Source: Curtobacterium sp. MCLR17_007
GTDB taxonomy: Bacteria; Actinomycetota; Actinomycetes; Actinomycetales; Microbacteriaceae
DNA: 64,000 bases
NCBI RefSeq assembly: GCF_003234655.2
Contig: NZ_CP126271.1
Location: 744,001-808,000, forward strand
Direction of reading: 5' to 3'
Both the position numbers and the translations under genes were made by a program. How positions within the stretch are numbered: position 1 is the first letter of the stretch; each line of letters starts with the position of its first letter. A model generated the notes under the pieces. The model was not told the origin of the DNA. It did no database searches and saw nothing but the letters and a program-made list of their open reading frames with translations. Shown here piece by piece: positions 27,309 to 46,965 of this stretch.

Positions 27309-27769
27309 CTCCGAGCCGACGGCTCGGCCGACGGCTCGACCGAGGGCTCGGCCGACGGCTCGGCCGACGGCAGCGCCGACGTCTCGGTCGACGGCAGACC
27401 CGCCGGGGGTGCCGGAGCGGGAGCCCCCAACCCCTCGATCACCCGGACCGAGACCGTGATCAGGTCAGGGTGCTCGCCAGCGGCGGTGAGCTCGTCCCGC
27501 ACGCGCTCGCCGACCTCGCGGAGCGTGTCGCCGGCGGGTCGTCCGTCGTCGGCCGCGATGCCGGCCCTGACGGTCACCGAGCTGCCGGCATCGCTGCCGC
27601 CCGATCGGTCGATGTCGACGAGCACGTCGGGCTGCCGCAGCGCGAGCTTGACCGCGATGGCGTCGGCTGCCGCCTCGACGACGGGCTGGGCGGGGAAGAC
27701 GTCGTCGACGCCGTCGATCGTGCGGAGCAGCGCGGTCAGGCGCTGCGACAGGTCCTGGTCGTCGGGCAC
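27290..27769 (-). CDS. Small protein with Pro-Ser-Ala-Glu repeat tail, linked to the Asp23 gene
   Basis: 159 residues from GTG 27769 (GAGGAG just upstream). The first ~115 residues are a mixed alpha/beta domain (LTALLRTIDGVDDVFPAQPVVEAAADAIAVKLA ... TLREVGERVRDELTA) that echoes Asp23/Gls24-like folds. The tail is a run of PSAEPSAEPS-type units followed by SARSEGSLA. It is the third gene of the ECF-sigma operon, 8 bp after the Asp23 gene. Function unknown. Confidence 0.65.
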   Translation of the reverse strand: MPDDQDLSQRLTALLRTIDGVDDVFPAQPVVEAAADAIAVKLALRQPDVLVDIDRSGGSDAGSSVTVRAGIAADDGRPAGDTLREVGERVRDELTAAGEHPDLITVSVRVIEGLGAPAPAPPAGLPSTETSALPSAEPSAEPSVEPSAEPSARSEGSLA

Positions 27770-27777
27770 CGTGCTCC

Positions 27778-28362
27778 TCAGGGGACGTGGACGTCGTCGA
27801 ACACGACGTCGATGCGGTCGATGCGCAGGTCCGTGTGGCGGGCGAGGGCGTCCTCGATCCGGGCACGGAGCCGCTCGGCGGTCTGGTCGGCGACGAGTCC
27901 GTACGCGATGCTCGCGGTGACCTCGACGCGGATCGGGGCACCGGGGACGCCGAGTTCGCCGTCGAGCGTGCACCGTCCCATCACGACACCGCCCATGGTG
28001 TCGCCGGTCCGCCGGACCAGCCCGCGTACGGCCGCCTCGGTGATCGTCAGGCGCAGCAGCGGGTCCGGGTGCGCCACGGGGACGTCCCGACCGGCGCGGA
28101 CCTCGGAGCGGATCGTCTCGAGCAGACCGGAGATCCAAACCGAGTCACGGTCTGGCTCGGCGTCGGCCCGGTGCTGCATGGCGTCCCACGACAGCTCGCG
28201 CAGTCGCTGCATGCCGGACAGGGCGAGCCGGCACGCAGGGGAGGCCTCGATGGCGGGGTCCCGCGGGGTGCGCCCGCGGTCGAGGTACGCGCCGAGTTCC
28301 TCCATCGTGTGGCCGTCGAGGTCGTCCTCGGGCACAGGGACATCGTCGAACGTCATCGCCAT
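27778..28362 (-). CDS. Asp23/Gls24-family envelope stress protein
   Basis: 194 residues from ATG 28362 (a second ATG at 28356 gives an ATGA overlap with the sigma gene and is equally possible). The N-terminal ~90 residues include DDVPVPEDDLDGHTMEELGAYLD and a zf-like position-conserved CRLALSGMQRLREL; the C-terminal part, VEVTASIAYGLVADQTAERLRARIEDALARHTDLRIDRIDVVFDDV, is the Asp23 core. Genes of this type sit next to ECF sigma factors in many actinobacteria, as here, and are tied to envelope stress. Confidence 0.8.
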   Translation of the reverse strand: MAMTFDDVPVPEDDLDGHTMEELGAYLDRGRTPRDPAIEASPACRLALSGMQRLRELSWDAMQHRADAEPDRDSVWISGLLETIRSEVRAGRDVPVAHPDPLLRLTITEAAVRGLVRRTGDTMGGVVMGRCTLDGELGVPGAPIRVEVTASIAYGLVADQTAERLRARIEDALARHTDLRIDRIDVVFDDVHVP

Positions 28363-28910
28363 GCCTCCATCTCCTGGAGCAGGAACCGCCTGGCCCGGGC
28401 GAGCAGCCCCCGGACGGTCGAGGTCGGCAACTCGAGGGCGTCGGCGATCTCCTGGTAGCTGTACCCGGCCGTCTCGCGGAGCAGCCAGCACCGGCGTTGG
28501 TCCTCGGGGAGCTTGTCGAGCGCTTCCCACACCGCGTCGAGCTGCAGTCGCGCTTCCACGATACGCTCCGGCGAGTGCACGGCATCAGCTGCCGGGTCGA
28601 CGGCATCCACGTCGTCGTGGTGCCGACGCGCGCGGATTCGGTCGAGGGCCTTGCGCGTGATGATCTGCGTCACCCACGGGCGGAAGCGTGCGGGCGTCTC
28701 GAGTTCCGACAGCCGTCGCCATGCGGTCAGGAACGACTCCTGCACGACGTCGTCGGACTCGAGGTTCGAGCCGAGCATCTTGGCGGCGAACACCCGCATC
28801 AGCGGACCGTGTCGTCGCGCCAGGACCTCGAACGCCCGCACGTCGCCGTCGGCCGCACGGACGACGAGCGTCGCGTCCTCGGCGCCGGAGAGCGAGTCGT
28901 CGTGGTCCAT
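28353..28910 (-). CDS. ECF-type RNA polymerase sigma factor
   Basis: 185 residues from ATG 28910. Region 2 is readable as VVRAADGDVRAFEVLARRHGPLMRVFAAKML and DDVVQESFLTAWRRL; region 4 as LDKLPEDQRRCWLLRETAGYSYQEIADALELPTSTVRGLLARARRFL. No anti-sigma gene is adjacent; instead the Asp23 and repeat-tail genes follow in overlap. It should direct transcription of an envelope-stress regulon. Confidence 0.92.
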   Translation of the reverse strand: MDHDDSLSGAEDATLVVRAADGDVRAFEVLARRHGPLMRVFAAKMLGSNLESDDVVQESFLTAWRRLSELETPARFRPWVTQIITRKALDRIRARRHHDDVDAVDPAADAVHSPERIVEARLQLDAVWEALDKLPEDQRRCWLLRETAGYSYQEIADALELPTSTVRGLLARARRFLLQEMEAWR

Positions 28911-29103
28911 CCTCGCCTTCCGGTCGGGTCTCGACCGCGGTGCGCTCGAAGGGGTCCCCTCGTCCGAGCATGCACCAGACCCACTGGCGATGCCCGGGGA
29001 ACGCCCTGGACGACCGGTCCCGCGTCGGCTACGGTGTCCCACTGAGGGAAAGACGCGCACCGCTCGCCGGTGCACGAGGACACGCGGCCCGAGCGGGACG
29101 CCA

Positions 29104-29119
29104 CTTCACGATCGTGAAG
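29104..29119. promoter_or_regulatory. Perfect palindromic operator before the MFS gene
   Basis: CTTCACGATCGTGAAG is a perfect 16-bp dyad ending in the AAGGAG ribosome-binding site (29117-29122). A repressor bound here would act next to the start codon. No regulator gene is adjacent. Confidence 0.6.
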
Positions 29120-29128
29120 GAGTTCCCC

Positions 29129-30661
29129 GTGTCCCCCATTTCATCTCGTGTGTCCGCGCCCAGCGCGAGCACGAACCCGAGCACCGGTCGCGACGGCCCG
29201 TCCCGTCTGCGCGACGCCTGGGTCGCCCTCGCCGGCCTGTCCGCCGTCTTCCTGTTCGAGATGCTCGACAACTCGATCCTCACCGTCGCCCTGCCGACGA
29301 TCGGCCGCGACCTGCACGCCTCCACCACCGGCCTGCAGTGGGTCACCGGCGCGTACTCGGTCGCGTTCGGCGGCCTCATGCTGCTGTTCGGGGCCGTCGC
29401 CGACCGGATCGGCCGCCGACGCGTGATGCTCGTCGGGCTCGTGCTGCTCGCCGTAGCCAGCGCCGCGACGGCGTTCGTCGACTCGACGGGGGAGCTCATC
29501 GCCGTCCGGGTGCTCATGGGGGTCGCCGCCGCGATGACGACACCGGGCTCGATGGCCCTGGCGTTCCGTCTGTTCGCCGCCGAGGACCTGCGCGTGCGTG
29601 CCCTCACCGTGATCTCCACCGCCGGCCTGGTCGGGCTCGCCGTGGGCCCCACCGTCGGGGGCTTCGTGCTCGCGGTCGCGCCCTGGCAGGTCCTGCTGCT
29701 GGCGAACGTGCCCATCGCGATCCTGGCCCTGGTCGGGATCGCCACCGGGGTGGCCGCCGACCAGCGGTCGGACCTGCGGCCCGACCCCGTCGACGTGACC
29801 GGCGCGCTGCTCGGCACCGCCGCGGTGGTGGGCGTCCTGCTCACCCCCACCGTCGTCGTGGAGTCGGGATGGGCCTCCCGGGAGGCCCTGGTCGCCGTCG
29901 CGGCGACCGTCGCCGCCGTCATCGGGTTCGGGATCCGCGTGTCCACGGCCCGCCACCCCGTCCTCGACCTGCGCATGGTCGCCCGCCCGCTCGTGGCGAG
30001 CGGACTGGCCTACAAGGCCGCCTCGGGCCTGGCCGTCGCGGGGCTGTCGTACCTGGTGACGCTGCAACTGCAGTTCGCCTGGGGCTGGCCGCCGGCGCTC
30101 GCCGCGATCGGCACGCTGCCCCAGGTGGTGGTGCTGCTCGCCGGTGGCCGGTTCGTCGGGCCGGTCGTGCAGCGGCTCGGCCTCGGCCGCGCCGCCTGGG
30201 TGAGCGCCGCAGCCGTCGTGTCCGGGCTGGCCGTGTTCGGGGCGCTGAGCCGCTTCGGCTACGGCTGGGTCGTCGTCGCGCTGGTCCTGGTCGCCGCCGG
30301 GATGCGGGTCGTCGGCGCGGTCGCCGGCACGAGCGTGCTGACGGGGCTGCCGGCCGACCGGACCGGTGTCGGCGCGGCGCTCGTCGACACGGCGAGCGAA
30401 CTCGCGAGCGGCGTGGGTGTGGCGGTCACCGGCACCGTCGTGGCCGCACTGGTCGCTGGCAGCATCACCACCACCCACTGGTCGCCCGCGCGGCTCGATG
30501 CCTTCCAGGGTGCGCTCACCGTGTCCGGCCTGTCCCTGGCGCTCGTCGCCGCGCTGCTCGTCGTGGTCGGGCTCGTCCGTTCCCGCTCCGCGCCCGTCCG
30601 TCCCCGCTCCACCCCGTCCCGTCCCGTCCCCGCTGCTGACCAGGAGTCCACGCATGTCTGA
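29129..30661 (+). CDS. MFS multidrug exporter, 14-helix (DHA2) type
   Basis: 510 residues from GTG 29129. Fourteen hydrophobic segments can be followed; motif C-like and motif A elements are present (LDNSILTVALPTIGRDLHAS, FGAVADRIGRRRVMLVGLVLLAV, GPTVGGFVLAVAPWQVLLLANVP). This is the QacA/EmrB-like drug:H+ antiporter pattern. The esterase gene overlaps its end by 8 bp, so the pair may export or inactivate the same compound. A perfect palindrome upstream suggests inducible expression. Confidence 0.9.
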   Translation: MSPISSRVSAPSASTNPSTGRDGPSRLRDAWVALAGLSAVFLFEMLDNSILTVALPTIGRDLHASTTGLQWVTGAYSVAFGGLMLLFGAVADRIGRRRVMLVGLVLLAVASAATAFVDSTGELIAVRVLMGVAAAMTTPGSMALAFRLFAAEDLRVRALTVISTAGLVGLAVGPTVGGFVLAVAPWQVLLLANVPIAILALVGIATGVAADQRSDLRPDPVDVTGALLGTAAVVGVLLTPTVVVESGWASREALVAVAATVAAVIGFGIRVSTARHPVLDLRMVARPLVASGLAYKAASGLAVAGLSYLVTLQLQFAWGWPPALAAIGTLPQVVVLLAGGRFVGPVVQRLGLGRAAWVSAAAVVSGLAVFGALSRFGYGWVVVALVLVAAGMRVVGAVAGTSVLTGLPADRTGVGAALVDTASELASGVGVAVTGTVVAALVAGSITTTHWSPARLDAFQGALTVSGLSLALVAALLVVVGLVRSRSAPVRPRSTPSRPVPAADQESTHV

Positions 30662-31652
30662 CACCACCACCGACACCGCCGTCCGTCCGCCCTTCGACCC
30701 CGAGTACGTGCCCTTGCTCCGCGCGTTCGCCGAGCGCGGCCCGATGGTGCTGACGCCCGAGGCGCTGCCGGCGATGCGCGCGCTCGACACCACCGAGGAC
30801 GAGCTCGACGCGGTCCTGCGGGGCAAGGGTCTGGAGCGCTCGAGCATCACCGTGCCGGGGTACGGCGGCGACCCGATCACCCTGGCCGTCGTGCAGCGCA
30901 CCGGGCGAACCGGGACCGCCGCGTGCGCCTACACGATCCACGGTGGCGGGATGGTGTTCGGCCACCACCTCGGCAACCTGGACTCCTACGACGAGTGGCT
31001 GTTCCCGAACGACGTCGTGCTCGTGAGCGTCGACTACCGCCTGGCGCCCGAGCACCCCGACCCCACCCCGGTCGAGGACTGCTACGCCGGCCTGGTGTGG
31101 GTGTCCGAGCACGCCGCCGAACTCGGCGTCGACCCGGACCGGGTGTTCCTGGTGGGGCAGAGCGCCGGCGGCGGACTCGCCGCCGGGACGGCCCTGCTCG
31201 CCCGGGACCGTCGCGGCCCGGGCATCGCGGCGCAGGTGCTGGTCAGCCCCATGCTCGACGACCGGCTGGACACCGTGTCCGCGCGCCAGTTCGACGGCGT
31301 CGGGGTCGCGGACCGCGAGATGTGCCGCTTCGGCTGGGACGCCCTGCTCGGCGACCGACGGGGGACGGACGCGGTGTCGGCTGCAGCGGCCCCGGCACGT
31401 GCCGAGGACCTGACCGGATTGCCGCCGACGTACATCGACTGCGGCAGCGCCGAGGTATTCCGGGACGAGACCGTCGCGTTCGCCGGACGCCTGTGGGCGG
31501 CCGGGGTGGCCGCCGAGCTGCACGTCTGGCCCGGGGGGTTCCACGGCTTCAGCGGGATGGCGCCTGGATCGTGGCTCGCGCATCAGGCGAACCGCGCGCT
31601 CGGGGCGTGGACCGCGCGGATGCTCGACCGGACCGGGACCACTGCCGGGTAG
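30654..31652 (+). CDS. Alpha/beta hydrolase, HSL (HGGG) esterase family
   Basis: 332 residues from ATG 30654. Oxyanion motif HGGGMVFG, nucleophile elbow GQSAGG, YRLAPEHPDPTPVEDC, catalytic Asp near CGSAEVFRDE and His in PGGFHGFSG: the full set of hormone-sensitive-lipase-type esterases. Co-transcribed with the MFS exporter through an 8-bp overlap. Likely substrate: a short acyl ester or an ester-containing xenobiotic. Confidence 0.9.
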   Translation: MSDTTTDTAVRPPFDPEYVPLLRAFAERGPMVLTPEALPAMRALDTTEDELDAVLRGKGLERSSITVPGYGGDPITLAVVQRTGRTGTAACAYTIHGGGMVFGHHLGNLDSYDEWLFPNDVVLVSVDYRLAPEHPDPTPVEDCYAGLVWVSEHAAELGVDPDRVFLVGQSAGGGLAAGTALLARDRRGPGIAAQVLVSPMLDDRLDTVSARQFDGVGVADREMCRFGWDALLGDRRGTDAVSAAAAPARAEDLTGLPPTYIDCGSAEVFRDETVAFAGRLWAAGVAAELHVWPGGFHGFSGMAPGSWLAHQANRALGAWTARMLDRTGTTAG

Positions 31653-31765
31653 GGACCGACAGTCGGCCCTCGGTCCGTCACCCGTCGCTGAGCATCCCGA
31701 CGCATTCCGTGACGAATGTGCCCCTCGATTCGTCTGTAGGAGGGAGACACACGACCGAGGGATGC

Positions 31766-32014
31766 ATGGAAGACCAGCACGACACCGTCAGCGGGAGCCT
31801 CGCCGACGACCTGCACCGCGGTGACCGGTGCCCCAGCACGTTCGACCGGTGGCGGTGCGGGCTGCCCGCGCACCACGTCGGTCCGCACCGGTCGTGCGAA
31901 GCGTCGCAGCGTGCGGAGTGGAACGACCGCGCGAGCGGCCGACGGCTGCGGGACCTCGCCCGTCCAGCTGAGCACGCCGAACGAGCGGCCCGCGCCGTCA
32001 GCGACCCGTCGTGA
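31766..32014 (+). CDS. Small Cys/His-containing protein of unknown function
   Basis: 82 residues from ATG 31766, preceded by GAGGG. CPSTFDRWRCGLPAHHVGPH followed by RSC gives a C-x8-C and H-x4-H-x2-C spacing that could bind one zinc ion; similar short proteins occur in Microbacteriaceae. The 3' end overlaps the convergent GH10 fragment by 17 bp. Gap 31653-31765 holds nothing recognised. Confidence 0.45.
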   Translation: MEDQHDTVSGSLADDLHRGDRCPSTFDRWRCGLPAHHVGPHRSCEASQRAEWNDRASGRRLRDLARPAEHAERAARAVSDPS

Positions 32015-32888
32015 CCAGGCGCACCGTGTCCGGAGTGCTCGTGACCGTGAAGGGCGTCGCGACGTCGCCGACCGTGGCCTGGTACTCGCCACGGAACCCG
32101 CGCACCGCCAGCCGACCGTCCGCGTCCGTCCTGGACACGGTCGGGGCGTGCCACCAGTCCTCCTTGACCAGCTGACGCAGCGCCTCGTAGGACGGCTTCG
32201 GGGTCCCGTCGGCCCGGACCAGCCCGATCGGTGCGCCGAGCCAGGCACCGGCGTCGGTGATGCCCCAGTAGGTGACGGCCTCGACCGCCGGGTGCCCGAC
32301 CAGACTCCGGTAGTGCCGCACGAGGTCGTCGGCCTGTCGCGCCTCGCCCTCGGGTGTCGACGGCCACGAGGGGACCCGGTGGTCGTTGAGGTCGACGACG
32401 TCGGCGGGCATGAGGTCACCCGACACGAGTGACGTCTCGGTCAGGTGGATCGGCAGACCGTACCGGGCGAACCGGTCGACGATCGCCAGGACGGCGTCCT
32501 CGCCCCGGTACCCCTGGTGCATGTGGGTCTGCAGCCCGATGGCGTCGACGGCGATGCCGGCTTCGAGCACGCCCTCGATCAGGCACTCGTACGCGGTCGA
32601 CAGGTCGAAGTCGTTGAGCAGCAGCGTCGCGTGCGGGTTCGTCGCGCGGGCCTCCTCGAACGCCATCCGGATCATCGCGATGCGCCCGCGGTCGAGCGCG
32701 AGCGGGGTGATCGCGTTCGGACCGTTGTCGAACACCGGCATGATGACGACCTCGTTGATGGCGTCCCACGTGTCGACGAGCCCGGTGAAGTCCCCGACCT
32801 CGCGCCGGATCCGCTCCCGCTGCAGCCGCTCGACCTCGTCGAGGGGCAGCCCGAGCAGCCAGTCCTGTTGCACCGTGTGCCACACGAG
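31998..32888 (-). pseudogene. GH10 endo-1,4-beta-xylanase, C-terminal fragment
   Basis: 296 residues of a split gene, beginning inside the conserved GH10 motif (L-V-W-H-T-V). Both catalytic glutamates are here: acid/base in DTWDAINEVVIMPVF and nucleophile in PIHLTETSLVSG; QTHMHQGYRG and EAVTYWGITDAGAWLG are also standard GH10 segments. An Ig-like tail (TDADGRLAVRGFRGEYQATVG) closes it. The missing N-terminal third lies 23 kb away at 56073-56413 in the same orientation; joined, they give a ~410-residue enzyme. The break is made by the transposon at 32890. This fragment lacks any natural start. Confidence 0.92.
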
Positions 32889-32889
32889 C

Positions 32890-32898
32890 GTTATCCGG
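32890..32898 (+). repeat. Left terminal inverted repeat of the transposon
   Basis: GTTATCCGG, matched in inverse orientation by CCGGATAAC at 56060-56068. It begins one base after the GH10 flank. Confidence 0.7.
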
Positions 32899-32979: not shown

Positions 32980-33717
32980 GACTGGCTCCGGCAGGGACCG
33001 TCGCGTCGAGTCGAACGATGCGCTGGAGGCTGACGTCGCGCACGAAGCCATTGAACCGGCTCGACATCGACAGCCGGATACGCGTGAATCCTGTTTGATC
33101 GATGGAAGCCCGTCGCGGTTGACGGGATTTCTTGCTCCCGAGCGGGCGCGGACCACGGAACCTGGGCGCGCGAGCTGCTCTCGCGACGCGCGCTCCGAGC
33201 ATGAGTCCTGGGGGAGTCGCCTTCTCGGTCCCGACCGGTCGCAGCCTGCTTCAAGTAGCGCGCCGTACAGCATATGCGAGTTCTGCTCGCCGGTTGACAC
33301 TCGGCGTAGGCAAACATCTGGCTCAGGATGGACTGTAGCGACACTCCTGAAAGAGGTCAGCTTGTGCGCATTTGAACACGAGACGGTCAGGCGGCGGAGA
33401 TTGGCTTGAGATCGTGCCGACCCGCAAAACGCGGTATTGCAGAAATGGTCATCTCTGCGAGACACGCAAAGCGGCGGAGCCGGGTCACAGGCGAACGCCG
33501 CCGTGTCCCGTGACTTGTGAAGGGAGAGGCACAATAGTTCTTAGAGATCGCCACGGGCCCGAGGGGACGCTGGCGGCCCTCGACAACTGAGCCCATAAGC
33601 CGGTAAACGGGGGTTTCATCCGAGAAGACACGTCCTAGGCCGTGGTGCCGATACGGTGGACGCAACGCGTGAACATGTTCGCGTACTTATCAGACCTTCA
33701 TGGGCAACGGGGAGATC

Positions 33718-35520
33718 GTGGCAGAAGAGAACACCCCGCGATTGCGCGTGCACGAGTTCGCGAGCCGGAGCGGCGTCAAGACCCGCGATGTCCTCCAAGC
33801 CTTGGCGGACATGAACGAGTATGTACGCTCGCCATCAAGTGTCTTGCCTCCGCCGGTCGTGCGGCGATTAGGAGTGGCGCTCGGTGTTGATCCCACGCTC
33901 TTGGTCGACGAACCTGTCGCTCGCACGCCACCCGTGGAAGCGGTACGCGAGACGGAGGCGTTCTCCAATGACTACGGATGGCATTCGGGGGCTGTTAAAG
34001 CGCCCCGGAGCGTTGCGCTGCAACGCGAGCTCGAAGCCGTTGAGGCGAGATATCCGGCGCTGGTGGAACATCGGCGCCAGCTCGCATCCATGGGGTCTCA
34101 GGTCATCAGAGCATCACTGATCAAGGGCGGCCCGTTGAGCGGTGGCGCGAACCTCCGCATCCGGTTCAGCGAAGCCATCGAGTCCGCGTTCGGGCTTACC
34201 CGCGAGGTGCTCGCGATCTACCTGCCATACGAGGATTTCCAGATGCGCTCCTATGAGGCAGTGCTCCGCCAACTCAAGGACGAACGACACGTCGTGACGC
34301 CGGACGTCATCCTTATCTGGACTCCCGACGAGCGTCTTGGAACGAAGCTAGCCGAATGGAGGAATCTGCGTACAGTAGCCATCCCATTCAAGCTGGACAG
34401 CGTGAACTCCTTCGGGCTCATAGAACTCCTCCAGAATCACATCCACATCCGCAATCTCTTCGAGGTCACGACCCCCGTGTCGGGCGACACATTCTTCGGC
34501 CGTAGAACGGTCCTCCAAAGTCTGCGCGAAGATGTACTAGCCCAACGGGCAGCAGGCATCTTTGGACTCCGAAAAGCGGGAAAGACCAGCATTCTTCTGG
34601 AGCTTTCGGATGAGCTGCGTGCGGACGGCGTGCTGCCCGTTCTCATCGATCTTGAGGCGCTACCGTCCCCGCCAGTTGACCCGACCGACGATCTGCTCGC
34701 TCTGTTGCGCCTGCGCATGATGGAAGCGCTGAAGGGTCAAGAACTACGCGTGAAGGAACTGGCGGAGCTTCCGGACTTCCCAAGCACCATGCAGTTCAAG
34801 ATCGCGGTGCAGAAACTTCTCCGACACCTCGGCTCGAGCGGGACTCGTGTGCTACTGATGCTGGACGAGATCGAGTACGTGACACCGAGCGGAAAAGCTG
34901 GGGCGGCGGCTGCTGACCTGCCCCGGGTTGCACAGGTGCTGGCCACGCTTCGAAGCTTGACCCAAGAGTCCGACAACATGTCCCTTCTCCTCGCAGGTCT
35001 GACTAGCTCGATTGTGGAGGACGGGACACTTCACGGTAGGCCGAACCCATTCTTTTCCTGGGCACGGAAGGTGTATCTCGGTCCCCTCGAGCGGGATGAA
35101 GCGGCAGATCTTGCTCTCTCTCTGGGCCGGCGGATGGGCATATTCATAACGGAAGGCGGGCTGGACGCACTGTACGAGGCCTCAGGTGGGCACGCCTACC
35201 TCTATCGCCATCTTGCGTCGACCGTCGTCAAGACGCTCCCAGTCAACTTGACCAATCGGATCATGGCACGCAGGGATGTGCTGAGCGCGCTCAGCGCCTG
35301 GAAGTCTGAGGTGCACGCCCACATAGTCGAGATGATCCGGCACGTCGAGGGTTACTACCCCGTTGAATCCGTCCTCTTGGATGCGCTCCGCGCTGCTCCG
35401 GATCTGTTCAACGAGTTCGCTGACTCGGAGATCGATGCGACCCGCCACTTGGTGGATCTGGGCCTATTGGAATCCACAGATGGCGGGTACCGTCCCGCTG
35501 CGCTGCTGGAGCTATTGTGA
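33718..35520 (+). CDS. IF2-N-domain / P-loop ATPase, first gene of a putative defence pair
   Basis: 600 residues. GTG 33718 is preferred over ATG 33700 because CGGGGAG sits at the right distance. Residues ~9-54 (LRVHEFASRSGVKTRDVLQA ... SSVLPPPVVRRLG) match the small helical IF2_N module of translation factor IF-2. A middle region (~130-250) reads as an alpha/beta domain with LPYEDFQMRSYEAVLRQL and PDVILIWTPDERLGTKLAEW. The ATPase has Walker A GLRKAGKTS (~283-291) and Walker B VLLMLDE (~378-384), then a STAND/ORC-like C-terminal helical and winged part. The nuclease gene starts within its stop codon. Not a family I can name; a sensor-ATPase role is inferred. Confidence 0.75.
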   Translation: MAEENTPRLRVHEFASRSGVKTRDVLQALADMNEYVRSPSSVLPPPVVRRLGVALGVDPTLLVDEPVARTPPVEAVRETEAFSNDYGWHSGAVKAPRSVALQRELEAVEARYPALVEHRRQLASMGSQVIRASLIKGGPLSGGANLRIRFSEAIESAFGLTREVLAIYLPYEDFQMRSYEAVLRQLKDERHVVTPDVILIWTPDERLGTKLAEWRNLRTVAIPFKLDSVNSFGLIELLQNHIHIRNLFEVTTPVSGDTFFGRRTVLQSLREDVLAQRAAGIFGLRKAGKTSILLELSDELRADGVLPVLIDLEALPSPPVDPTDDLLALLRLRMMEALKGQELRVKELAELPDFPSTMQFKIAVQKLLRHLGSSGTRVLLMLDEIEYVTPSGKAGAAAADLPRVAQVLATLRSLTQESDNMSLLLAGLTSSIVEDGTLHGRPNPFFSWARKVYLGPLERDEAADLALSLGRRMGIFITEGGLDALYEASGGHAYLYRHLASTVVKTLPVNLTNRIMARRDVLSALSAWKSEVHAHIVEMIRHVEGYYPVESVLLDALRAAPDLFNEFADSEIDATRHLVDLGLLESTDGGYRPAALLELL

Positions 35521-37277
35521 CTTCGCCGAGTAGCCAGGCACATTGGCCAGGGTGGGCTAACTCAATCGCAGAGCAGACCACTGTTAGCAGTATCGTCTTT
35601 CTTCAACTCGGCTCCAGCTACCTCGCGACCGCAGACGTCTTGTCCAGCGCTGGATTCGTTCTCGTGGACGCGGATGCGTTCCTCGACGGTGAAGACGTCG
35701 AGGGAAACCTCGTCGTATTGACCGATCTCGACGCCCTCTCGTCACCCGCAAGCGCAGCGCGCATGGGCAAGCTCCGTATGAAAGTGCACGCTGAGGTCAA
35801 GGCTGGCCGGCGGTTCGTGCTGCAATCCCGCGCTCCCCGCCTCATCTACGCATCTCGGGGAAGTTTGTTGGCGCAGGACGCGACGTTCGCCACGGGGCCG
35901 TCCCGCAGCTCGTGGGCTGATCCACACCACGCGACTCCAGTGTTCGAAGCCGAGCTGGACGAGACCCGGCCCTTTCGGACGGTGCTGCGGCAAACGCTCA
36001 CAGAACTTGGCGTATCCGTGTGTGCGCGGCTTGACCGGCTCGTCTACGAATCGGGCAACCCCGCCCCCGGAGTTCATGAGCTGGACGCGACGGAAGTAGA
36101 GGCTCTACGAGGGGCTGGCCTCGTCGACAGTGTCGGGGGCTGGCAAGTCGAAGACCTCGCGGCCGTCCTTCGTCGAGAACTCACGGACGTACTCGACGAA
36201 GGGCGGGATGGTTCCAGCTACCTCAGCGATGTAGTAGTCGAGTTCGACGCCCTGACCTCAGCGCTTCGCAGGACTGTACGTGCTGCCGCTCGAGCACGCT
36301 GGGGTCCCAGCTGGGCGTCGGAGTGCCTACCTGAAGCGGTTGCCCTTGAGGTGGTCAAACGGGCATCCAGCGAATTGGCGCCGATGGTGGAATCGATTGA
36401 GGATATTCGGGACGCGCTCGCTTGGTTGAGTGCGAAAGAGCTGCTGGGACTTCGTCGGGAGAGTGCGCTCGGGGGCCTCGGGATGTCTGAGAGCATGTGG
36501 AAGGCGGCCGAACGAGAACTAGCGGCAGTCGAAGATCGGCTTCGTTTCTTTGGGCATCTCACACGTCAGGACGAGGCTTGCGTAAAGAAGTGGAGCGGTT
36601 GGTTGGGCCAAAAGCTCTCACACACGAGTCACCTCAGCCCTGATAGCGGGCTCGCCATCGAGTCGGCCAATGAAGGGGCACTGCTCCGTCAGATCAGAGA
36701 TGGCCTGCTCCACAACCCCGCCTTCTCTACGGCGTCGGGAGCCGCGTTCATGCAGCTCGTGACTTCGACTCTGCGCTTCCTGAGGCTCGCTGCGGACCAC
36801 CGCGCCCCGTACACACGTCCGTTCCCTAAGGGGAAAGCGCCGTTAGAAGCAGCGCTGCAGGAGCACTACTTCTGGTACCTCGGTGCGACGGGCCTAGGAG
36901 ACAGTACGTTCATGGAAGTGCCTAACATCTCCACTGGGCGCGTGGATGTGCTCGTGGTGGGGGAGGGTGGCAAGCGCTTCGTCACCGAGGTCAAACGGGA
37001 GCTGAGCGACGCGTCATTTCCAGCGATTGCGGATGCGTACTTCGGTCAGGCAGCGGACTATCACGTCAACAGCGATCCACTCGGTCAGCTGCTTGTTTTA
37101 GACCTTACCGATCACTCAGAGGGAGTGCCGGCGGTCGCGAATTCCATCAGCGTGGAAACGCGCGACGTAGGTGGGAGCTTGCGATCCATTGTGATTTACG
37201 TAGTCCGCGGCAATCGACCCGAACCGAGCGCGACCAAATCCCCGCGTCCGGTGCAGTCGGGTCCGGAAAACGAATAG
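35517..37277 (+). CDS. Putative PD-(D/E)XK nuclease, second gene of the defence pair
   Basis: 586 residues from GTG 35517 (GTGA overlap). N-terminal ~130 residues form an alpha/beta domain with NLVVLTDLDALSS and RRFVLQSRAPRLIYAS; a long helical middle follows. The C-terminal domain carries a restriction-nuclease signature: Glu446/449 in LEAALQEHYFWYLGAT, Asp477 in GRVDVLVV, Glu491 and Lys493 in VTEVKRE, and Gln511-x3-Tyr515 in FGQAADY, the QxxxY element of RecB/Cas4-type nucleases. It probably cuts DNA when licensed by the ATPase encoded upstream. No homologue is recognised by name. Confidence 0.75.
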   Translation: MTSPSSQAHWPGWANSIAEQTTVSSIVFLQLGSSYLATADVLSSAGFVLVDADAFLDGEDVEGNLVVLTDLDALSSPASAARMGKLRMKVHAEVKAGRRFVLQSRAPRLIYASRGSLLAQDATFATGPSRSSWADPHHATPVFEAELDETRPFRTVLRQTLTELGVSVCARLDRLVYESGNPAPGVHELDATEVEALRGAGLVDSVGGWQVEDLAAVLRRELTDVLDEGRDGSSYLSDVVVEFDALTSALRRTVRAAARARWGPSWASECLPEAVALEVVKRASSELAPMVESIEDIRDALAWLSAKELLGLRRESALGGLGMSESMWKAAERELAAVEDRLRFFGHLTRQDEACVKKWSGWLGQKLSHTSHLSPDSGLAIESANEGALLRQIRDGLLHNPAFSTASGAAFMQLVTSTLRFLRLAADHRAPYTRPFPKGKAPLEAALQEHYFWYLGATGLGDSTFMEVPNISTGRVDVLVVGEGGKRFVTEVKRELSDASFPAIADAYFGQAADYHVNSDPLGQLLVLDLTDHSEGVPAVANSISVETRDVGGSLRSIVIYVVRGNRPEPSATKSPRPVQSGPENE

Positions 37278-39362: not shown

Positions 39363-39932
39363 TCAGCTTGTCGTCGCGCGCGCCGGCCGGGCCGAGCGGG
39401 TCGACAGCACCCATTCTGGGCGCTCATAGTGGCACGTGTACCCGTTCGGATAACGCTCCAGATAGTCCTGATGCTCAGGCTCCGCTTCCCAGAACGGACC
39501 TGCCGACTCGATAGTGGTGACTACTCTGCCCGGCCACGCGCCTGAAGCGTTCACGTCCGCAATAGTGTCGCGGGCGATCTGCGCCTGCTCCGGTGTGAGT
39601 GGGAAGATCGTGGAACGGTAGCTCAGACCGACATCGTTACCCTGCCGGGTGGGTGTCGTCGGGTCATGGATCTGGAAGAAGTACTCCAGGATGTCTCGAT
39701 AGGTCGTTTTGGCCGGGTCGAAGACGACCTCCAGAGCTTCGGCGTGACCCGGATGGTCTCGATACGTGGCGTGGCTGTTCCGACCGCCGGTGTAACCGAC
39801 ACGCGTCTGCAGCACACCGGGCCGGCGACGAATGAGCTGCTGCATGCCCCAAAAACATCCGCCGGCGATGACAGCTGTCTCAGTGCCCGGCGTGCTGGTG
39901 ATCTGTCCGGTGTCCTGAATGCCGCTGGTCAT
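39363..39932 (-). CDS. msrA: Peptide methionine-S-sulfoxide reductase, copy 1
   Basis: 189 residues, starting in an ATGA overlap with msrB1. Catalytic Cys26 is in GGCFWGM; RVGYTGG and [20 protein letters not shown] are the family segments, and the recycling cysteine is in [11 protein letters not shown]. It reduces the S-epimer of oxidised methionine in the cytosol, using thioredoxin. It should be well expressed only if ribosomes pass the nonsense codon in msrB1 or reinitiate at ATG 40138. Confidence 0.93.
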
Positions 39933-40402
39933 GATGCGTTCTCCTCAGTTGTGTCAGTAGTGTCGAACAGCGAGCGATACTCGCCGTACCCCTCGGCATC
40001 GAGTTCGGCCACGGGGATGAAGCGGAGGGCTGCGGAATTCATGCAGTAGCGCAGGCCCCCAGCCTCGGCGGGGCCGTCATCGAACACGTGCCCCAGATGG
40101 CTGTCGGCACCGCTGGAGCGGGCCTCAGTCCGCTCCATTCAGAGCGTTCTGTCCGTCTTGGTCCGGACGGCATCCGGCTGGATAGGCCTGGTGAAGCTCG
40201 GCCATCCGGTACCGCTTTCGTACTTGTCGGTGGAAGAGAACAGGGGCTGACCCGAGACGACATCGACGTAGATGCCGGGCTCGTGGTTGCTCCAGTACTC
40301 ATTGCGGAACGACGGCTCGGTGCCGTCCTCCTGTGTGACGCGGTACTGCAGTGGGGTGAGGCGGCTGAGCGCCTCGGGAGTCTTGCGATAGTCGTTGGAC
40401 AC
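39929..40402 (-). pseudogene. msrB: Peptide methionine-R-sulfoxide reductase, copy 1, with in-frame stop
   Basis: Reads in one frame from GTG 40402 (AGGAGG upstream) to 39929 except for TGA at 40141-40139. Alignment with copy 3 ([19 protein letters not shown] against [22 protein letters not shown]) puts the stop where copy 3 has Gly, a one-base GGA to TGA change. The first part holds [16 protein letters not shown] and TGWPSF; the catalytic cysteine ([11 protein letters not shown]) lies after the stop, so the truncated product would be inactive. The stop is not at the position where selenoprotein MsrB enzymes carry selenocysteine. Confidence 0.85.
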
Positions 40403-40458
40403 GATTCCTCCTGTTCGGACGCCGCTGGCGTGCGGTGTCACTAGATGGAACGCATCAG

Positions 40459-40476
40459 TTGGACCATTTGGTCCCA
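40459..40476. promoter_or_regulatory. Island operator, copy b (msrB1-msrA1)
   Basis: TTGGACCATTTGGTCCCA: arms TTGGACCA and TGGTCCCA differ from perfect symmetry at one pair. It lies 57 bp before the msrB1 start. Confidence 0.75.
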
Positions 40477-40553
40477 TTATCCTGAGAGCCGGCTGTGACT
40501 TCAGCCCCGTTCCTTGTTCGCGCTGCTTACGTGCTCTGTCTCGGACCAGGACC

Positions 40554-41036
40554 TCAGGAGAGGTGCCCGTCGGCGTCGCGGGCGCGCACCGGATGTTCGC
40601 TCAAGATTGAGATTCTGTTGAAGAGGTTGATGGACGTTGCTACCCATTCGGCGCTGACGAAGCTTACCTCCCCTAGGGCGTGCCGGGCAGCGATGAGGTC
40701 CGCTTTGCTGTTCTCGCTCAGCGGCACGGCTGTCGCTGTCTCAGCGACAGCGAGCAGGGCTGTTTCCCGGCTGGTGAACAGTGTCGTTTCTCGCCACGCA
40801 GGTAGCAGGTCCAGCTTCTGCTGGGGCACGCCGTGCTTTCGAGCTTGACGTGAGTGCAGATCCAGGCAGAACACGCATCCGTTGAGTTGGGATACGCGCA
40901 CTTTGATGATCTCGCTCTCGGCGAGAGTCAACCCGCTGGCGGTTGCACTGGAGATGGCAGTTGCGAACTCGCCCGCCGCTTTCCACGCATCGGGCAGAGC
41001 TTTGTCCATGTAAGGAAGATCTTCAGCGTGCATCAT
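40554..41036 (-). CDS. AhpD-like carboxymuconolactone-decarboxylase-family protein, copy 1
   Basis: 160 residues from ATG 41036 (GTG 41039 and ATG 41033 are alternatives). Active site Cys54-x2-Cys57 with His61 in [20 protein letters not shown], the peroxidase/disulfide-reductase centre of AhpD proteins; [11 protein letters not shown] supplies the proton-relay glutamate. It is the last of four co-directional genes starting with msrB2 (12-bp gap to the acetyltransferase). Likely a thiol-based reductant or peroxidase in oxidant defence. Confidence 0.88.
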
Positions 41037-41048
41037 CACGCCGATGCC

Positions 41049-41468
41049 TCAGTGACGGCGTCCATGCTGACGCGAACTCGCATTGCCCGGGAAGGCAGGG
41101 TCGACGATGTCTGCGTACTCCGGGTGTGTCTTCACGAACGCCGTGGCGAAGGGGCACGTCAGAGTCACGGTTCGTCCCTGTGAGCGGAGCATATCGAGGA
41201 CTCCACCAAGTAGTTTGCCTGCGATTCCGTGTCCGCGGAACTCGGGGAAGACGGAAGTCGCCAGAAGTGTGACTCGCGTCCCTGTTTCCTGGTAAAGGAG
41301 TCCTGCTGCCGCACGACCCTCGACCGTGTACTCGTACACGGCGGCCTCCTTATTGTCGGTGATGCTGAATGGTTCCGCATCGAGTTCGGCTGACGCAGTC
41401 GCTACGAGTTCCTCCGTCATTCGATCAGTGTCCGTGAGCGTGATCATTCGCGGTTGATTCGAGTCCAT
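41049..41468 (-). CDS. NATD1-type small acetyltransferase, copy 1
   Basis: 139 residues from ATG 41468; a longer in-frame reading runs into msrA2. The short GNAT core of the COG2388 kind is clear: AAVYEYTVEGRAAAGLLYQE, then VTLLATSVFPEFRGHGIAGKLLGGVL (CoA loop), and TLTCPFATAFVKTHPEYADIV at the end. Members are compact and lack motif D partners; substrate unknown. A paralogue is encoded at 42708-43148. Confidence 0.85.
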   Translation of the reverse strand: MDSNQPRMITLTDTDRMTEELVATASAELDAEPFSITDNKEAAVYEYTVEGRAAAGLLYQETGTRVTLLATSVFPEFRGHGIAGKLLGGVLDMLRSQGRTVTLTCPFATAFVKTHPEYADIVDPAFPGNASSRQHGRRH

Positions 41469-41490
41469 GTGTCCTGCCTGTGTCTTGTTG

Positions 41491-42051
41491 TCACGCCTGT
41501 GGGTTCTCCTCAGGGCGCCTGGGTAGCACCCATTCGGCGCGTTCGAAGTGGCAGGTGTAGCCATGGGGGTAGGTGACCAGATAGTCCTGATGCTCGGGCT
41601 CGGCTTCCCAGAATGCGTCGGCAGGTTCGATGGTGGTGACGGCCGGGCCTGGCCAGAGTCCTGATGCGTCAACGTCTGCGACTGTGTCTCGCGCGATCTG
41701 CTCCTGACGCATCGAGATGGGGAAGATCGCGGAGCGATAGCTGCTGCCGTAATCGTTGCCTTGGCTGTTCAGCGTTGTGGGGTCGTGCACCTGGAAGAAG
41801 TAGGCGAGTACCTCGCGATATGTCGTGACGGTCGGATCGAACTCGATCTCGATTGCCTCGGCGTGCCCCGGATGATTGCCGTAGGTTGCGTGGTCGTTCT
41901 CGCCGCCGGTGTAGCCGACACGTGTGTTGACCACGCCCGGCTGGTGACGGAACAGGTCCTCCATGCCCCAGAAGCACCCGCCTGCGAGGACAGCCGTCTC
42001 GGTGTCCGGGTTGTCGGTTATGTTCCCGGTGTCGTCGACACCGCTGGTCAC
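41491..42051 (-). CDS. msrA: Peptide methionine-S-sulfoxide reductase, copy 2
   Basis: 186 residues from a GTG in overlap with msrB2. [46 protein letters not shown] and [11 protein letters not shown] match copies 1 and 3 closely, so the three arose by duplication or repeated capture. Complete catalytic and recycling cysteines. Confidence 0.94.
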
Positions 42052-42521
42052 GCCACGTGGCCCTTCTCTTCAGCGTCGAAGGTGAACAGGGAGCGGTATG
42101 CTCCGTACCCCTCCTCCTCGAGCGACGAAACGGGGACGAAGCGGAGGGCCGCCGAGTTCATGCAGTAGCGAAGCCCGCCAGCCTCCTGCGGCCCGTCGGT
42201 GAACAGGTGACCGAGATGGCTGTCCGCACCCGCCGAGCGCACTTCGGTGCGTGGTTCGCTTAACTGGAAGTCGGATCTGGTGTCCACAGCATCCCGAGTG
42301 ATCGGCTTGGTGAAACTCGGCCAGCCCGTTCCACTGTCGTACTTGTCGGTCGACGAGAACAGAGGCTCCCCGGAGACGATGTCGACATAGATACCCGGTT
42401 CATCGTTTGCCCAATACTCGTTGTCGAAAGCTGGCTCAGTGCCCTCTTCCTGAGTGACGTAGTGCTGGTGCTCCGTCAGGCGGCTCAGCGCCTCCTTCTT
42501 GGCGTGATTCTGCGAGCTCAC
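42048..42521 (-). CDS. msrB: Peptide methionine-R-sulfoxide reductase, copy 2
   Basis: 157 residues, uninterrupted. [46 protein letters not shown] and the catalytic cysteine in [14 protein letters not shown] are intact. The two CxxC zinc motifs found in many MsrB proteins are absent, as in the other two copies. Start at 42521 is supported by GAGGAGGAG. It heads the operon msrB2-msrA2-acetyltransferase-ahpD1. Confidence 0.94.
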
Positions 42522-42566
42522 AGCTCCTCCTCCTCGTTGGGTCCGTCCTCACACCATAGAACATTT

Positions 42567-42584
42567 TGGGACCCCTGGGTCCAA
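42567..42584. promoter_or_regulatory. Island operator, copy c, in a divergent promoter
   Basis: TGGGACCCCTGGGTCCAA has the same arms as the complement of copy b. It lies between -10 boxes of two divergent promoters: TATGGT (complement of 42553-42558) towards msrB2 and TATGCT (42602-42607) towards the acetyltransferase. Binding would cover both -35 regions. Confidence 0.8.
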
Positions 42585-42615
42585 AAACTGCTATCCGCAG
42601 GTATGCTCGACAGAC

Positions 42616-42711
42616 ATGAGCCGGTCTGACGAGGCGACGGCAAAGCTAGCTCGGATGCGCGAGAGCCCGGCAACTGCAGGCACTCCGTTGGACTCGAAAG
42701 GCCCGGTATGA
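42616..42711 (+). CDS. 31-residue leaderless upstream ORF
   Basis: ATG 42616 lies 8 bp past the TATGCT -10, so it would be at or next to the 5' end of the mRNA. It encodes MSRSDEATAKLARMRESPAT and 11 more residues, and its TGA overlaps the acetyltransferase ATG (ATGA), which means the downstream gene would be translated by coupling. Could be a leader peptide; it lacks homology I can see. Confidence 0.45.
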   Translation: MSRSDEATAKLARMRESPATAGTPLDSKGPV

Positions 42712-43148
42712 ACGACTCGAACTCCCCGCCTCGGCCCGCCGCTGACGCTACCGATCCGAAGCAGCACAGAGCCCCAGTGATCTCCTCTGAGCAGCGTGCT
42801 CTCATTGAAGAGATGGAGAGGACTGCGCCAACGGAAGGACGGTTCTCGATAACGCGTGACGATGCCGCTGGCCTTTTCGTGGCTGCGAAGGATGACGTCG
42901 AGTTCGGTGGCGTGCTGTTCGCCGAGAGTGATGGTCAGGTGTTGCTTCTGTCGACATCGATCCTGCCGGCTTTCCGCGGCCAGGGCCTCGCTACCGAACT
43001 CACTCGGCGCGTACTCAACCTGCTGCGCGCCGAGGGAAAGAGTGTGACCGTCAGGTGCCCGGTGTTCAGGTCCTTCTTGCAGCACTACCCGGAGTATGAA
43101 CAGCCTCTGCACGAACGGCCCGAAAGTGATCGGAACGAGGATGGTTAG
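42708..43148 (+). CDS. NATD1-type small acetyltransferase, copy 2
   Basis: 146 residues from ATG 42708. A ~45-residue polar N-terminus precedes the compact GNAT core: AGLFVAAKDDVEFGGVLFAESDGQVLLLSTSILPAFRGQG and VTVRCPVFRSFLQHYPEY. Paralogue of copy 1 but transcribed divergently. The following ahpD2 gene overlaps it by 8 bp. Confidence 0.85.
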   Translation: MNDSNSPPRPAADATDPKQHRAPVISSEQRALIEEMERTAPTEGRFSITRDDAAGLFVAAKDDVEFGGVLFAESDGQVLLLSTSILPAFRGQGLATELTRRVLNLLRAEGKSVTVRCPVFRSFLQHYPEYEQPLHERPESDRNEDG

Positions 43149-43674
43149 TCAGATGAACGACTTCGGTCCTGTCCTTGAGACAGTGAGCTTCACGAACACG
43201 CGGTTCGACCCCAACCAGACCCGCTTCGGCCACTTGGCGGGCGAAATGGCAGCAGCCTTCGGATACGCGGCGGAACTCGTCGGAGATTCGCGCCTGATGC
43301 AACTTCTCAGGCTGCGCGTTGCGCAGCTGAACCCGTGCTCTTACTGCCTCATCTTGCATAGTGAGGTCGCAGCCAAGATCGGGATCTCCTCGGTCGTCAT
43401 CGCGCACCTACCCTCATGGCGAGAGAGCAGGATGTTCTCCGAACCTGAACGAGCTGCTCTCGGGTACTGCGAAGCACTCACCATTTTCGACCAGGAGAGG
43501 TTCGAGACGGCGCATGACGAGCTGCGTGCCTACTTCAATGAGCGGGACGTCGCGGAGATCGCCGCGGTGGTGATTAACATGAACGTGTGGACCCGGCTCA
43601 AGCTCGCACAAGGTGCCGTGCCTGTCGCCGCGGATGAAGGAACGCGAAACCGCGCGGAGGACGACTCTGTGTGA
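43141..43674 (+). CDS. AhpD-like carboxymuconolactone-decarboxylase-family protein, copy 2
   Basis: 177 residues from ATG 43141 (ATG 43153 possible). Active site Cys66-x2-Cys69-x3-His73 in LNPCSYCLILHSEVAAKIG; the N-terminal FTNTRFDPNQTRFG is shared with copy 3. The C-terminal half (WRESRMFSEPERAALGYCEAL ... IAAVVINMNVWTRLKLAQG) is complete, unlike copy 3. Coupled to the acetyltransferase. Confidence 0.88.
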   Translation: MVSQMNDFGPVLETVSFTNTRFDPNQTRFGHLAGEMAAAFGYAAELVGDSRLMQLLRLRVAQLNPCSYCLILHSEVAAKIGISSVVIAHLPSWRESRMFSEPERAALGYCEALTIFDQERFETAHDELRAYFNERDVAEIAAVVINMNVWTRLKLAQGAVPVAADEGTRNRAEDDSV

Positions 43675-43717
43675 GTCTCTTCGTACCCCAGGCGCGGCCC
43701 TAGCTGATGTCGCCCGC

Positions 43718-44350
43718 TCAGGCCGGCGCCTCGAAGGCTTTGACCTGGGCCAACGCTGCGTCGAGAGCGGCACGCATGGGATAGACATCCCGCGTAGCTT
43801 TGGCTAGCAGGTAGCCACCTTGCATGGCGGCCAGCAGAGTATTCGCGAGCGCCCGGGAGTCTGCTTCAGCCTGAAGAACACCGTGGGTCTTGAGCCGGTC
43901 AAGTGCCTTCCCTAGCACCTCGAGCCACTCGTCGAAGTGCGCAGCGATAGCGCGTCGTGCATCCTCGTCGTGATCGGCAAGCTCGTTCGCAATCGAACCA
44001 AGCGGGCAACCGTACGCGCCGTGACGGATCGCGTTGCGGTCGACGAGCTCGTCCCGCCACAGCTCGAACCCTCGAAGCGAGACGACTTTGTCGAGCCTGC
44101 TCCGCTGCTGCGCGAGCAGACTTTCGGCCCGAACATCGATAACCGTCCGAACGAGATCCCGCTTGTCGGGGAAGTGCTGGTAGAGCTGAGACTTGGACGT
44201 GGCGCTGGCGATACGCACGTCGCTCAGCGTGGTAGCGGCCACACCGCGCTCGCTGATCAAAGCATCTGCCGCCTCGATGATGCGCACCTTCGTCGCCGCC
44301 CCGCGCGCCGTCAAGCGGCGTTGGGGCCGTGGTTGGCCGCTGTTGCTCAC
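43718..44350 (-). CDS. TetR-family regulator with a single redox-type cysteine (NemR/LmrA-like)
   Basis: 210 residues from a GTG start. HTH: KVRIIEAADALISERGVAATTLSDVRIASATSKSQLYQHFPDKRDLV. The C-terminal domain has YGCPLGSIANELADHDEDARRAIAAHFDEWLEVL, the pattern of the LmrA/YxaF/NemR branch; Cys115 is the only cysteine and corresponds roughly to the region where NemR senses electrophiles and hypochlorous acid. NemR and LmrA bind AGACC-GGTCT dyads, close to the GGACC-N4-GGTCC boxes found across this island. It is the best candidate for the island's shared regulator. Confidence 0.85.
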   Translation of the reverse strand: MSNSGQPRPQRRLTARGAATKVRIIEAADALISERGVAATTLSDVRIASATSKSQLYQHFPDKRDLVRTVIDVRAESLLAQQRSRLDKVVSLRGFELWRDELVDRNAIRHGAYGCPLGSIANELADHDEDARRAIAAHFDEWLEVLGKALDRLKTHGVLQAEADSRALANTLLAAMQGGYLLAKATRDVYPMRAALDAALAQVKAFEAPA

Positions 44351-44593
44351 ATGAACCAGGATATCCCGCTCGCACCGTACTCGACTGGAACGCTACGGAC
44401 CGCTGCTAGCGGGCATTCGGGGGATCGAGGCGGGCCGCTGGCCGAGCTCGCATGGCGCGCCGCCCTTACCGAGACGAGCGCATCCCGTGCGTTCGTGGTC
44501 TCCAGATCTGGTCCGATCCAGAAACTCGTGGACCAGCATGTCCAGAAGTGACATGAGCAGCGCGCGCAGATAGACACTTCTTGTCTCAGATAA

Positions 44594-44623
44594 TCGGACC
44601 CCCTAGTCCATCCGCGCTATGCT
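44594..44623 (+). promoter_or_regulatory. Island operator, copy d, with leaderless promoter
   Basis: TCGGACCCCCTAGTCCAT (44594-44611) is a weaker copy of the operator. TATGCT at 44618-44623 is a good -10; the CorA-like ATG lies 7 bp beyond it, so the transcript would begin at or near the start codon. The arrangement mirrors that at 42567-42616. Confidence 0.65.
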
Positions 44624-44629
44624 CGGGCG

Positions 44630-45634: not shown

Positions 45635-45732
45635 TCCGCCCCGAGGCAGGAGCGCATCTCCGCTGGTACTGCGGGTGATGACCTGATCGAAGTACGAGGC
45701 GTCGGGCCGATCCCGGGGCGACTCCGGCTGAC

Positions 45733-46428: not shown

Positions 46429-46565
46429 GGTTGTTCCTCCAGGTCGGTTGTGCGCCGGTCGCGTGGGGCTCTTCCGATCCCCGTTGGCGGCGTCCTATCG
46501 TCAGCCAATGCCGAGGCATCACCCGAGCGAAGGCTTTCCGGCGGGTCTATCCACCGTAGGGCATG

Positions 46566-46583
46566 TTGGACCCCAAAGACCAT
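46566..46583. promoter_or_regulatory. Island operator, copy e
   Basis: TTGGACCCCAAAGACCAT: left arm perfect, right arm matching at four of seven positions. It lies between the RraA-like gene and the start of the decayed DUF1772 gene, so it may have served either. Confidence 0.5.
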
Positions 46584-46584
46584 A

Positions 46585-46965
46585 TGACGAGTGGCTCCGC
46601 CAAAATGATCAAGAAGAGCTCAAACTCGGTCTGGGCCGCACCAATGACGAGACATTCGTGACGTCGATGCGGTCGATCAACCGCGTGGTGGTAAACCCGT
46701 TGTTCCTGCTGCCGATCTTCTTGCCCCGGTGATCCTCGGTGGGCGGGGCTGCTCGATCAGAGTCAGCCCCGCTGATGGATGCTCGTCACCAGCGGTGTCG
46801 TCTTCTTTGCCGGAGCGACCCTCGTCACGGTCGCCGGCAACGTCCCGTTGAACACCGCGTTGGATGACTCGACGTCGGCTGCGACGGGGGCACGCGCTGC
46901 ATTCGAGCGTCGATGGAACGTGCTGAATGGGGTACGCTCGGCGTCATCGTCGGCTCGGTACGCCC
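46585..46965 (+). pseudogene. Decayed DUF1772 (anthrone-oxygenase-like) membrane protein gene
   Basis: Two pieces in different frames. The first, ending at 46732, gives TFVTSMRSINRVVVNPLFLLPIF, which resembles the family's A-M-Q-x-I-N-R-x-x-V-N-P-x-F motif. The second, from TTG/ATG near 46779, gives TLVTVAGNVPLNTALDDS and RAAFERRWNVLNGVRS, the family's VPLN and W-N-x-x-R motifs. A deletion and frameshift separate them and the last helix is missing. Preceded by an operator copy, so it was probably a member of the regulon. Confidence 0.6.

Follow-up and report, generated by a model that had tools for sequence, protein, structure and literature searches.

What does a gene pair that joins an ATPase to a nuclease do just inside the end of a mobile element, and where does the nuclease fit in the history of the pair? 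We addressed this question for two genes, here termed A and B, in a 64,000-nucleotide stretch of Curtobacterium sp. MCLR17_007 DNA (contig NZ_CP126271.1, positions 744,001 to 808,000; hereafter, the window). A sequence-only reading had proposed that positions 33718 to 37277 encode a new defense system composed of an IF2_N-bearing P-loop ATPase and a PD-(D/E)XK nuclease. We consider it fairly probable that the pair is a mobile two-gene STAND defense system, most likely abortive, in which a ribonuclease (RNase) effector has been replaced by a deoxyribonuclease (DNase)-type domain shared with Lamassu. Judged by sequence comparison, the nuclease is a lineage-specific add-on, and a STAND ATPase with a HEPN-bearing partner makes up the invariant core of the family. 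The proposed ATPase-nuclease module therefore describes the mobile cargo of the window but not the family, since 15 of 18 related loci have no nuclease.

Genes A (33718 to 35520) and B (35517 to 37277; 586 amino acids [aa]) are both on the plus strand and overlap by 4 nucleotides. The open reading frame (ORF) of A is open from 33700, giving an ORF pair of 33700 to 35520 and 35517 to 37277, both plus. The GTG at 33718, which had been taken as the start of A, is preferred over the ATG at 33700 by comparison with homolog N termini (MTEENVPRLRV in P0002, MAEETVPRMRV in P0003, and (M)AEENTPRLRV for A read from 33718). A protein search that scored only the 7,998 candidates with the most shared words found 237 homologs of A, 120 of which were listed, and a genome scan found 107 relatives, of which 79 loci were kept. 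Twenty close loci (L002 to L021) encode proteins 39 to 72% identical to A. Two of these stand outside the pair count: the contig of L007 ends inside A, and in L020 the frame of A breaks off after 455 aa, with 53 bases of the locus remaining. In all 18 close loci with readable downstream DNA, A is followed, in fixed order, by an overlapping gene with the N-terminal part of B. The claimed coupling is thereby confirmed, and because the homologous pair recurs in 18 of 18 close loci, the observation goes beyond chance. For 7 of 16 fused (nuclease-bearing) and 24 of 120 short (nuclease-free) B proteins, the longest contig has the same length as that of a listed A, an indirect sign in keeping with a fixed A-B pair. 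Downstream of B, no third gene is common to all of the 18 loci and the window; L006 shares a downstream neighbor with L011, as does L015 with L019.

Comparison of the B proteins revealed two forms. The partner of A is 367 to 390 aa long with a HEPN-like end and no nuclease in 15 of the 18 loci; only L002, L008, and L009 encode a nuclease-bearing B (the L008 gene carries a frameshift, and its two ORFs were used separately, unmended). Across 157 B-type rows (139 from protein searches and 18 from loci, some nearly identical), the nuclease is absent from 135 and present in 22. Three of the latter, P0137 to P0139, are LmuA proteins with a different N terminus and were set aside, leaving 19 fused B proteins. 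The HEPN motif R-[NH]-x3-H is kept in 134 of the 135 nuclease-free proteins (133 with N and one with H, the exception being P0205), and its R, N, and H are invariant in 14 of 14 short B proteins from loci; it is lost in 19 of 19 fused proteins, which share ancestry, so that this loss represents one or at most a few evolutionary events, not 19. P0137 by chance shows RNAMAH at the motif columns. That the nuclease occurs where the HEPN effector has lost its motif is the main addition to what had been proposed for this locus.

In the window, the HEPN-like helical domain of B (residues 214 to 370; 36156 to 36626, plus strand) has lost the canonical active-site residues and carries the degenerate motif EDRLRFFGH (residues 339 to 347; 36531 to 36557, plus strand) where short B proteins have R-N-x3-H. 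We scored the 26 HEPN positions at which 95% or more of the short B proteins agree (L003 numbering). Thirteen are unchanged in 19 of 19 fused proteins (R252, A255, W263, R279, A280, R295, D296, W300, E305, L318, W325, D349, and W356), four are retained in part, and the other nine, among them R336, N337, H341, E244, R245, and E299, survive in no more than 4 of 19. In the alignments, E244, R245, and E299 are retained in P0136, L008, and L009, which look like intermediate forms.

Several comparisons suggest that the short B proteins of relatives are HEPN-bearing, putative RNases. Four listed short B proteins carry the UniRef name "Swt1-like HEPN," and the PADLOC model PDC-M34B matches two of four short B proteins scanned as well as the C terminus of L022, a single-chain STAND protein. 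In a profile-profile comparison, short B aligned with the C terminus of 27 single-chain STAND proteins (E value of 2.9e-6, probability 88%); with cropped regions, the same pairing gave an E value of 8.9e-5 and a probability of 60%, and four control pairings gave 0.5% or less. HEPN_Swt1 matched L022 weakly (E value of 0.027; one of four single-chain proteins scanned). Kinship between short B and gene A was not shown by profile comparison (probability 3%).

The predicted PD-(D/E)XK nuclease domain of B spans residues 383 to 577 (36663 to 37247, plus strand). Its signature residues, as originally described, are D477 (36945 to 36947), E491 to K493 (36987 to 36995), and the QxxxY element Q511 to Y515 (37047 to 37061), all on the plus strand. 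D477, E491, K493, Q511, and Y515 are invariant in 19 of 19 aligned proteins (window B and 18 homologs), each of which matches the pattern D...E-x-K plus QxxxY. Pfam found no domain in B, its sole match being at chance level (E value of 0.39). In PADLOC, residues 353 to 574 of B match positions 425 to 653 of the 655 positions of LmuA (PDLC03853; E value of 4.4e-50), so that the C-terminal nuclease domain of B corresponds to the LmuA C terminus. P0137 to P0139 match almost the entire length of LmuA. LmuB adjoins LmuA-type genes in four of four loci tested (L117, L129, L130, and L132), and LmuC was found at L129, the sole locus tested for it. Because LmuA-type genes with the domain adjoin LmuB, the nuclease domain of B is common to genuine Lamassu operons by sequence, and it may have passed from Lamassu to B. 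The pair itself is not a Lamassu member: B covers only the C-terminal part of LmuA, leaving the remainder unmatched, and A, a STAND ATPase, has no LmuB match in PADLOC, whereas LmuA elsewhere is paired with LmuB and, at L129, also with LmuC. Linear Streptomyces plasmids carry the LmuA genes of L129, L130, and L132, which have the B-type nuclease domain. B has 24 matches in plasmid records, many of them no more than about 20 kb from the end of a plasmid, and the three tested are LmuA.

Phylogenetic trees bear on the order of events. In a tree built from 152 B rows, with five others omitted, the 18 fused proteins fall on one side of a branch with an SH-aLRT value of 99. A tree of 54 rows was rooted on the divergent B of L136, which has an intact RNRFAH, lies beside an A-like gene, and sits on a very long branch. 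There, 13 fused rows are nested in 40 short ones, with support of 91/99 for the fused group and bootstraps of 84 to 88 at the nesting forks. Fused B would thus form, with moderate support, one nested branch, and because the fused rows nest inside the short rows, the HEPN form is most likely ancestral. In a nuclease-domain tree of 26 rows, the B domain falls among LmuA domains and two changes are needed, LmuA P0137 lying with weak support between L008/L009 and the rest. B might therefore have captured the nuclease twice; the B-body tree gives one clade, and long branches make both trees unsure.

Gene A encodes an IF2_N-like domain, a conserved alpha/beta domain, and a STAND ATPase (residues counted from the ATG at 33700; all on the plus strand). 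Of the proposed IF2_N/P-loop architecture, the ATPase part is secure, as the Walker A pattern GxxxxGK[ST] is present in 120 of 120 listed homologs, with the Walker B pattern [LIV]DE[IV]E in 118 of 120. The IF2_N-like domain (residues 14 to 49; 33739 to 33846) is less so: PF04760 is precomputed on 73 of the 120 listed homologs (counted by eye), but on the window protein (E value of 2e-4) it scores 21.5 bits against a cutoff of 25.3. The alpha/beta domain (about residues 93 to 250; 33976 to 34449), also found in distant single-chain relatives, has a possible sensor role. The STAND/AAA+ module (residues 252 to 606; 34453 to 35517) contains Walker A (GLRKAGKTS; 34564 to 34590) and Walker B (D389-E390; 34864 to 34869); Pfam AAA_22 matches A slightly under its cutoff (E value of 2.6e-5). 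Its STAND fold and winged helix mark A as a complete STAND ATPase of the CED-4 class. Kinship of A to PPR proteins, raised by phmmer, was dropped when none of the matching stretches passed on its own. At the N terminus of B, residues 3 to 213 (35523 to 36155, plus strand) give a weak match to an AAA/STAND-like fold; Walker A is missing there and from 136 of 136 B proteins, and the module is possibly a pseudo-ATPase with a winged helix.

In the mechanism that we propose, A would act as a switch, with the IF2_N-like and middle domains as its infection sensor, and would assemble in its ATP-bound state. B would be the effector subunit, its AAA/STAND-like module, devoid of nucleotide motifs, docking on A with the effector domains behind. 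In the ancestral and commonest form, with a short B, the effector would be the HEPN RNase. In the lineage of the window, an LmuA-type PD-(D/E)XK nuclease would have been fused to B while the old HEPN domain lost its active-site residues and kept its structural ones, and the active complex would cut DNA in place of RNA, probably with an abortive outcome. In Escherichia coli, domain I of IF2 is described as binding NusA (PMC12297416), and the IF2_N-like domain may direct sensing toward the machinery of translation or transcription. A more specific proposal, that a guard-type switch uses a mimic of the IF-2 N terminus to watch this machinery, that active and dead STAND proteins form a hetero-oligomer, and that in one lineage a DNase taken over from Lamassu assumed the function of the RNase, is one that we hold only tentatively.

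Two observations weigh against the preferred explanation. First, counter to a dead HEPN domain, a shifted R-x5-H lies a few residues downstream of the lost motif in 15 of 19 fused B proteins (residues 341 to 347 in the window). Second, counter to a HEPN identity of short B, Pfam HEPN models match none of nine short B proteins scanned, which slightly lowers our confidence in the explanation as a whole. The first of these is what a dual effector would predict, in which the HEPN domain of the window B would still be an RNase working through the shifted motif and the nuclease would be an added second activity. Purifying selection on the HEPN region would agree with that (pN/pS of 0.27 between the window and L002, with synonymous sites saturated). 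However, the canonical R, N, and H and also E244, R245, and E299 are replaced in most fused proteins; the window B has R341-L-x4-H347 but fails the HEPN RNase motif R-x4-6-H plus polar residue, the residue after R341 being nonpolar; and the shifted motif is missing in 4 of 19 (P0124, P0136, L008, and L009). A dual effector is thus unlikely. Quite unlikely, too, is direct restriction or anti-plasmid activity, in which A would load on foreign DNA like an ORC- or TnsC-like AAA+ protein and the PD-(D/E)XK domain of B would cut only that DNA, the host surviving, since the main form of the family has a HEPN-type effector and no DNase, which better fits a general toxic effector. Least likely is a toxin-antitoxin or maintenance role, in which A would restrain B and the pair would retain the transposon in the genome with no part in phage defense: tight overlap, constant gene order, and location in an insertion with recombinases would suit it, but a full CED-4-class STAND ATPase is atypical for an antitoxin, 3 of 18 relatives adjoin a candidate defense gene, and the nuclease domain is common to Lamassu effectors. 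Against these alternatives, an abortive STAND system with an exchanged effector remains our preferred reading, and a defense role for the pair is plausible.

The claim of novelty stands in part. No named system that covers both genes was found in Pfam, PADLOC, PHROGs, NCBIfam, or searches of open-licence PubMed Central (PMC) papers, but the nuclease is known from LmuA and a similar two-gene arrangement is already in print (PMC8195603; eLife 2021). That article predicts two-gene operons, carried on mobile DNA, in which an active STAND NTPase is paired with an eroded one whose commonest fusion partners are GT4 and HEPN. These nSTAND2 operons are the closest described layout. The pair resembles them in its mobility, in the intact NTP-binding motifs of one protein, and apparently in the eroded motifs of the other, which bears the effector (in those operons often HEPN). 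The window pair differs in having lost the HEPN motif and fused a PD-(D/E)XK domain; furthermore, "IF2" is absent from the accessible article text, although its source data may still list such members. The Pfam nSTAND2 profile had no match in the genome of the window at E values up to 10 and none above cutoff in six related genomes. As had been supposed, an IF2_N domain is not known from described defense ATPases, and searches of open-licence PMC papers found none that joins IF2_N to a STAND ATPase or HEPN.

Two other architectures are comparable. Single-chain STAND-HEPN proteins of the L022 type, from other phyla, combine an A-like middle domain, a STAND module, and a C-terminal HEPN-like domain, but in one chain, and the four scanned with Pfam match neither IF2_N nor PD-(D/E)XK. 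L022 and 26 similar loci, all outside Actinomycetota, have a HEPN-like C terminus with invariant R539, N631, R635, and H639, and an AAA-like protein akin to this type is present on 16 Klebsiella plasmid records. The Ava_2192 type, described in PMC3710099, likewise couples a Swt1-type HEPN to AAA+ in a defense setting; it differs in its ATPase (DUF499), its single-chain fusion, and its linkage with restriction-modification genes.

The pair is rare in the surveyed genomes. In order-, class-, and family-wide searches, each scoring few candidates per genome, the order gave matches in 2 of 395 other genomes (one being the divergent L136), the class in 2 of 393 (one weak, with an E value of 3.8e-4, and found to be another protein), and the family in 3 of 397 (L115, a true short pair; L116; and L117, an LmuA). 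A phylum-wide search with A, scoring at most three candidates per genome, was dominated by the IF2_N of other long proteins, and the window's own genome was the only full-length match among the matches listed. Phage records, searched with A only, gave no match. Plasmid records gave 20 matches to A and 24 to B, none spanning 80% of the query, and viral contigs yielded two distant A relatives, L133, a single-chain STAND-HEPN protein, and L134. The 425-aa divergent B of L136, with its divergent A-like neighbor, represents a further subfamily. Another two-STAND pair family occurs at eight mostly cyanobacterial loci (L064, L065, L066, L070, L073, L075, L076, and L079), where the gene after an A-like STAND gene overlaps it and starts like RPFDNFRVAITDPxxFFGR.

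The pair had been placed just inside a transposon end, and it does begin about 0.8 kb inside the left end of a 23.2-kb insertion (32891 to 56072) with recombinase genes. G1171, a genome labelled as the same species, lacks the insertion, aligning to the window at 27675 to 32890 and 56073 to 64000 with no gap between. GC content is 61.8% in the insertion versus about 72% outside, and the insertion ends are imperfect inverted sequences sharing GTTATCCGG. The left end cuts a GH10 glycoside hydrolase gene (31998 to 32885); positions 1 to 82 of the profile are missing from the match of this gene, and G1171 has no interruption at the site. At the right end, a recombinase block (51664 to 55989, plus strand) comprises a Phage_integrase gene (51664 to 52788; Pfam), a longer gene with a weaker Phage_integrase match below the Pfam cutoff (52577 to 55354), and a DUF6262-like gene just below cutoff (55351 to 55989), all plus, a trio that we take to be the Tn554 layout. 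Other cargo, at 39363 to 48388, is of an oxidative-stress type by sequence: MsrA genes (39363 to 39932 and 47127 to 47678), SelR/MsrB genes (42048 to 42521 and 47675 to 48388), and ORFs at 40139 to 40477 and 41491 to 42051 that resemble Msr genes by eye. The insertion also carries thioredoxin, carboxymuconolactone decarboxylase, CorA, and molybdopterin/flavin oxidoreductase genes.

A neighborhood survey, which the sequence-only reading had recommended, placed some relatives beside defense-type genes. A candidate defense gene lies beside the pair in 3 of 18 relatives (Avs1b-like at L005, PDC-S39 at L009, and PDC-S48 at L002). Five of ten neighbor proteins scanned with PADLOC (a chosen set, not a random one) had no match (two from L003 and one each from L004, L010, and L013), and the other two of the ten were a TnsB-like second protein of L002 and the LmuB of L117. 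The scanned neighbor of L017 also had no match. PIN-domain genes lie on either side of L003, and integrases lie near L010. PDC-S68 and RecD-like models match the neighbors at L006 and L011, which, read from their start, are probably relaxases.

If our preferred explanation is correct, the family would hold a natural record of effector replacement, with an old active site decaying in the very branch where a nuclease is fused. The nuclease would be one shared with an unrelated defense system, and the sensor-switch protein would have stayed in place. Because the predicted DNA-cutting domain gained by B also serves another defense system, the comparison points to an exchange of weapons, or effector domains, among such systems. 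An immune switch would also carry part of a translation initiation factor, making the guarding of the gene-expression machinery testable.

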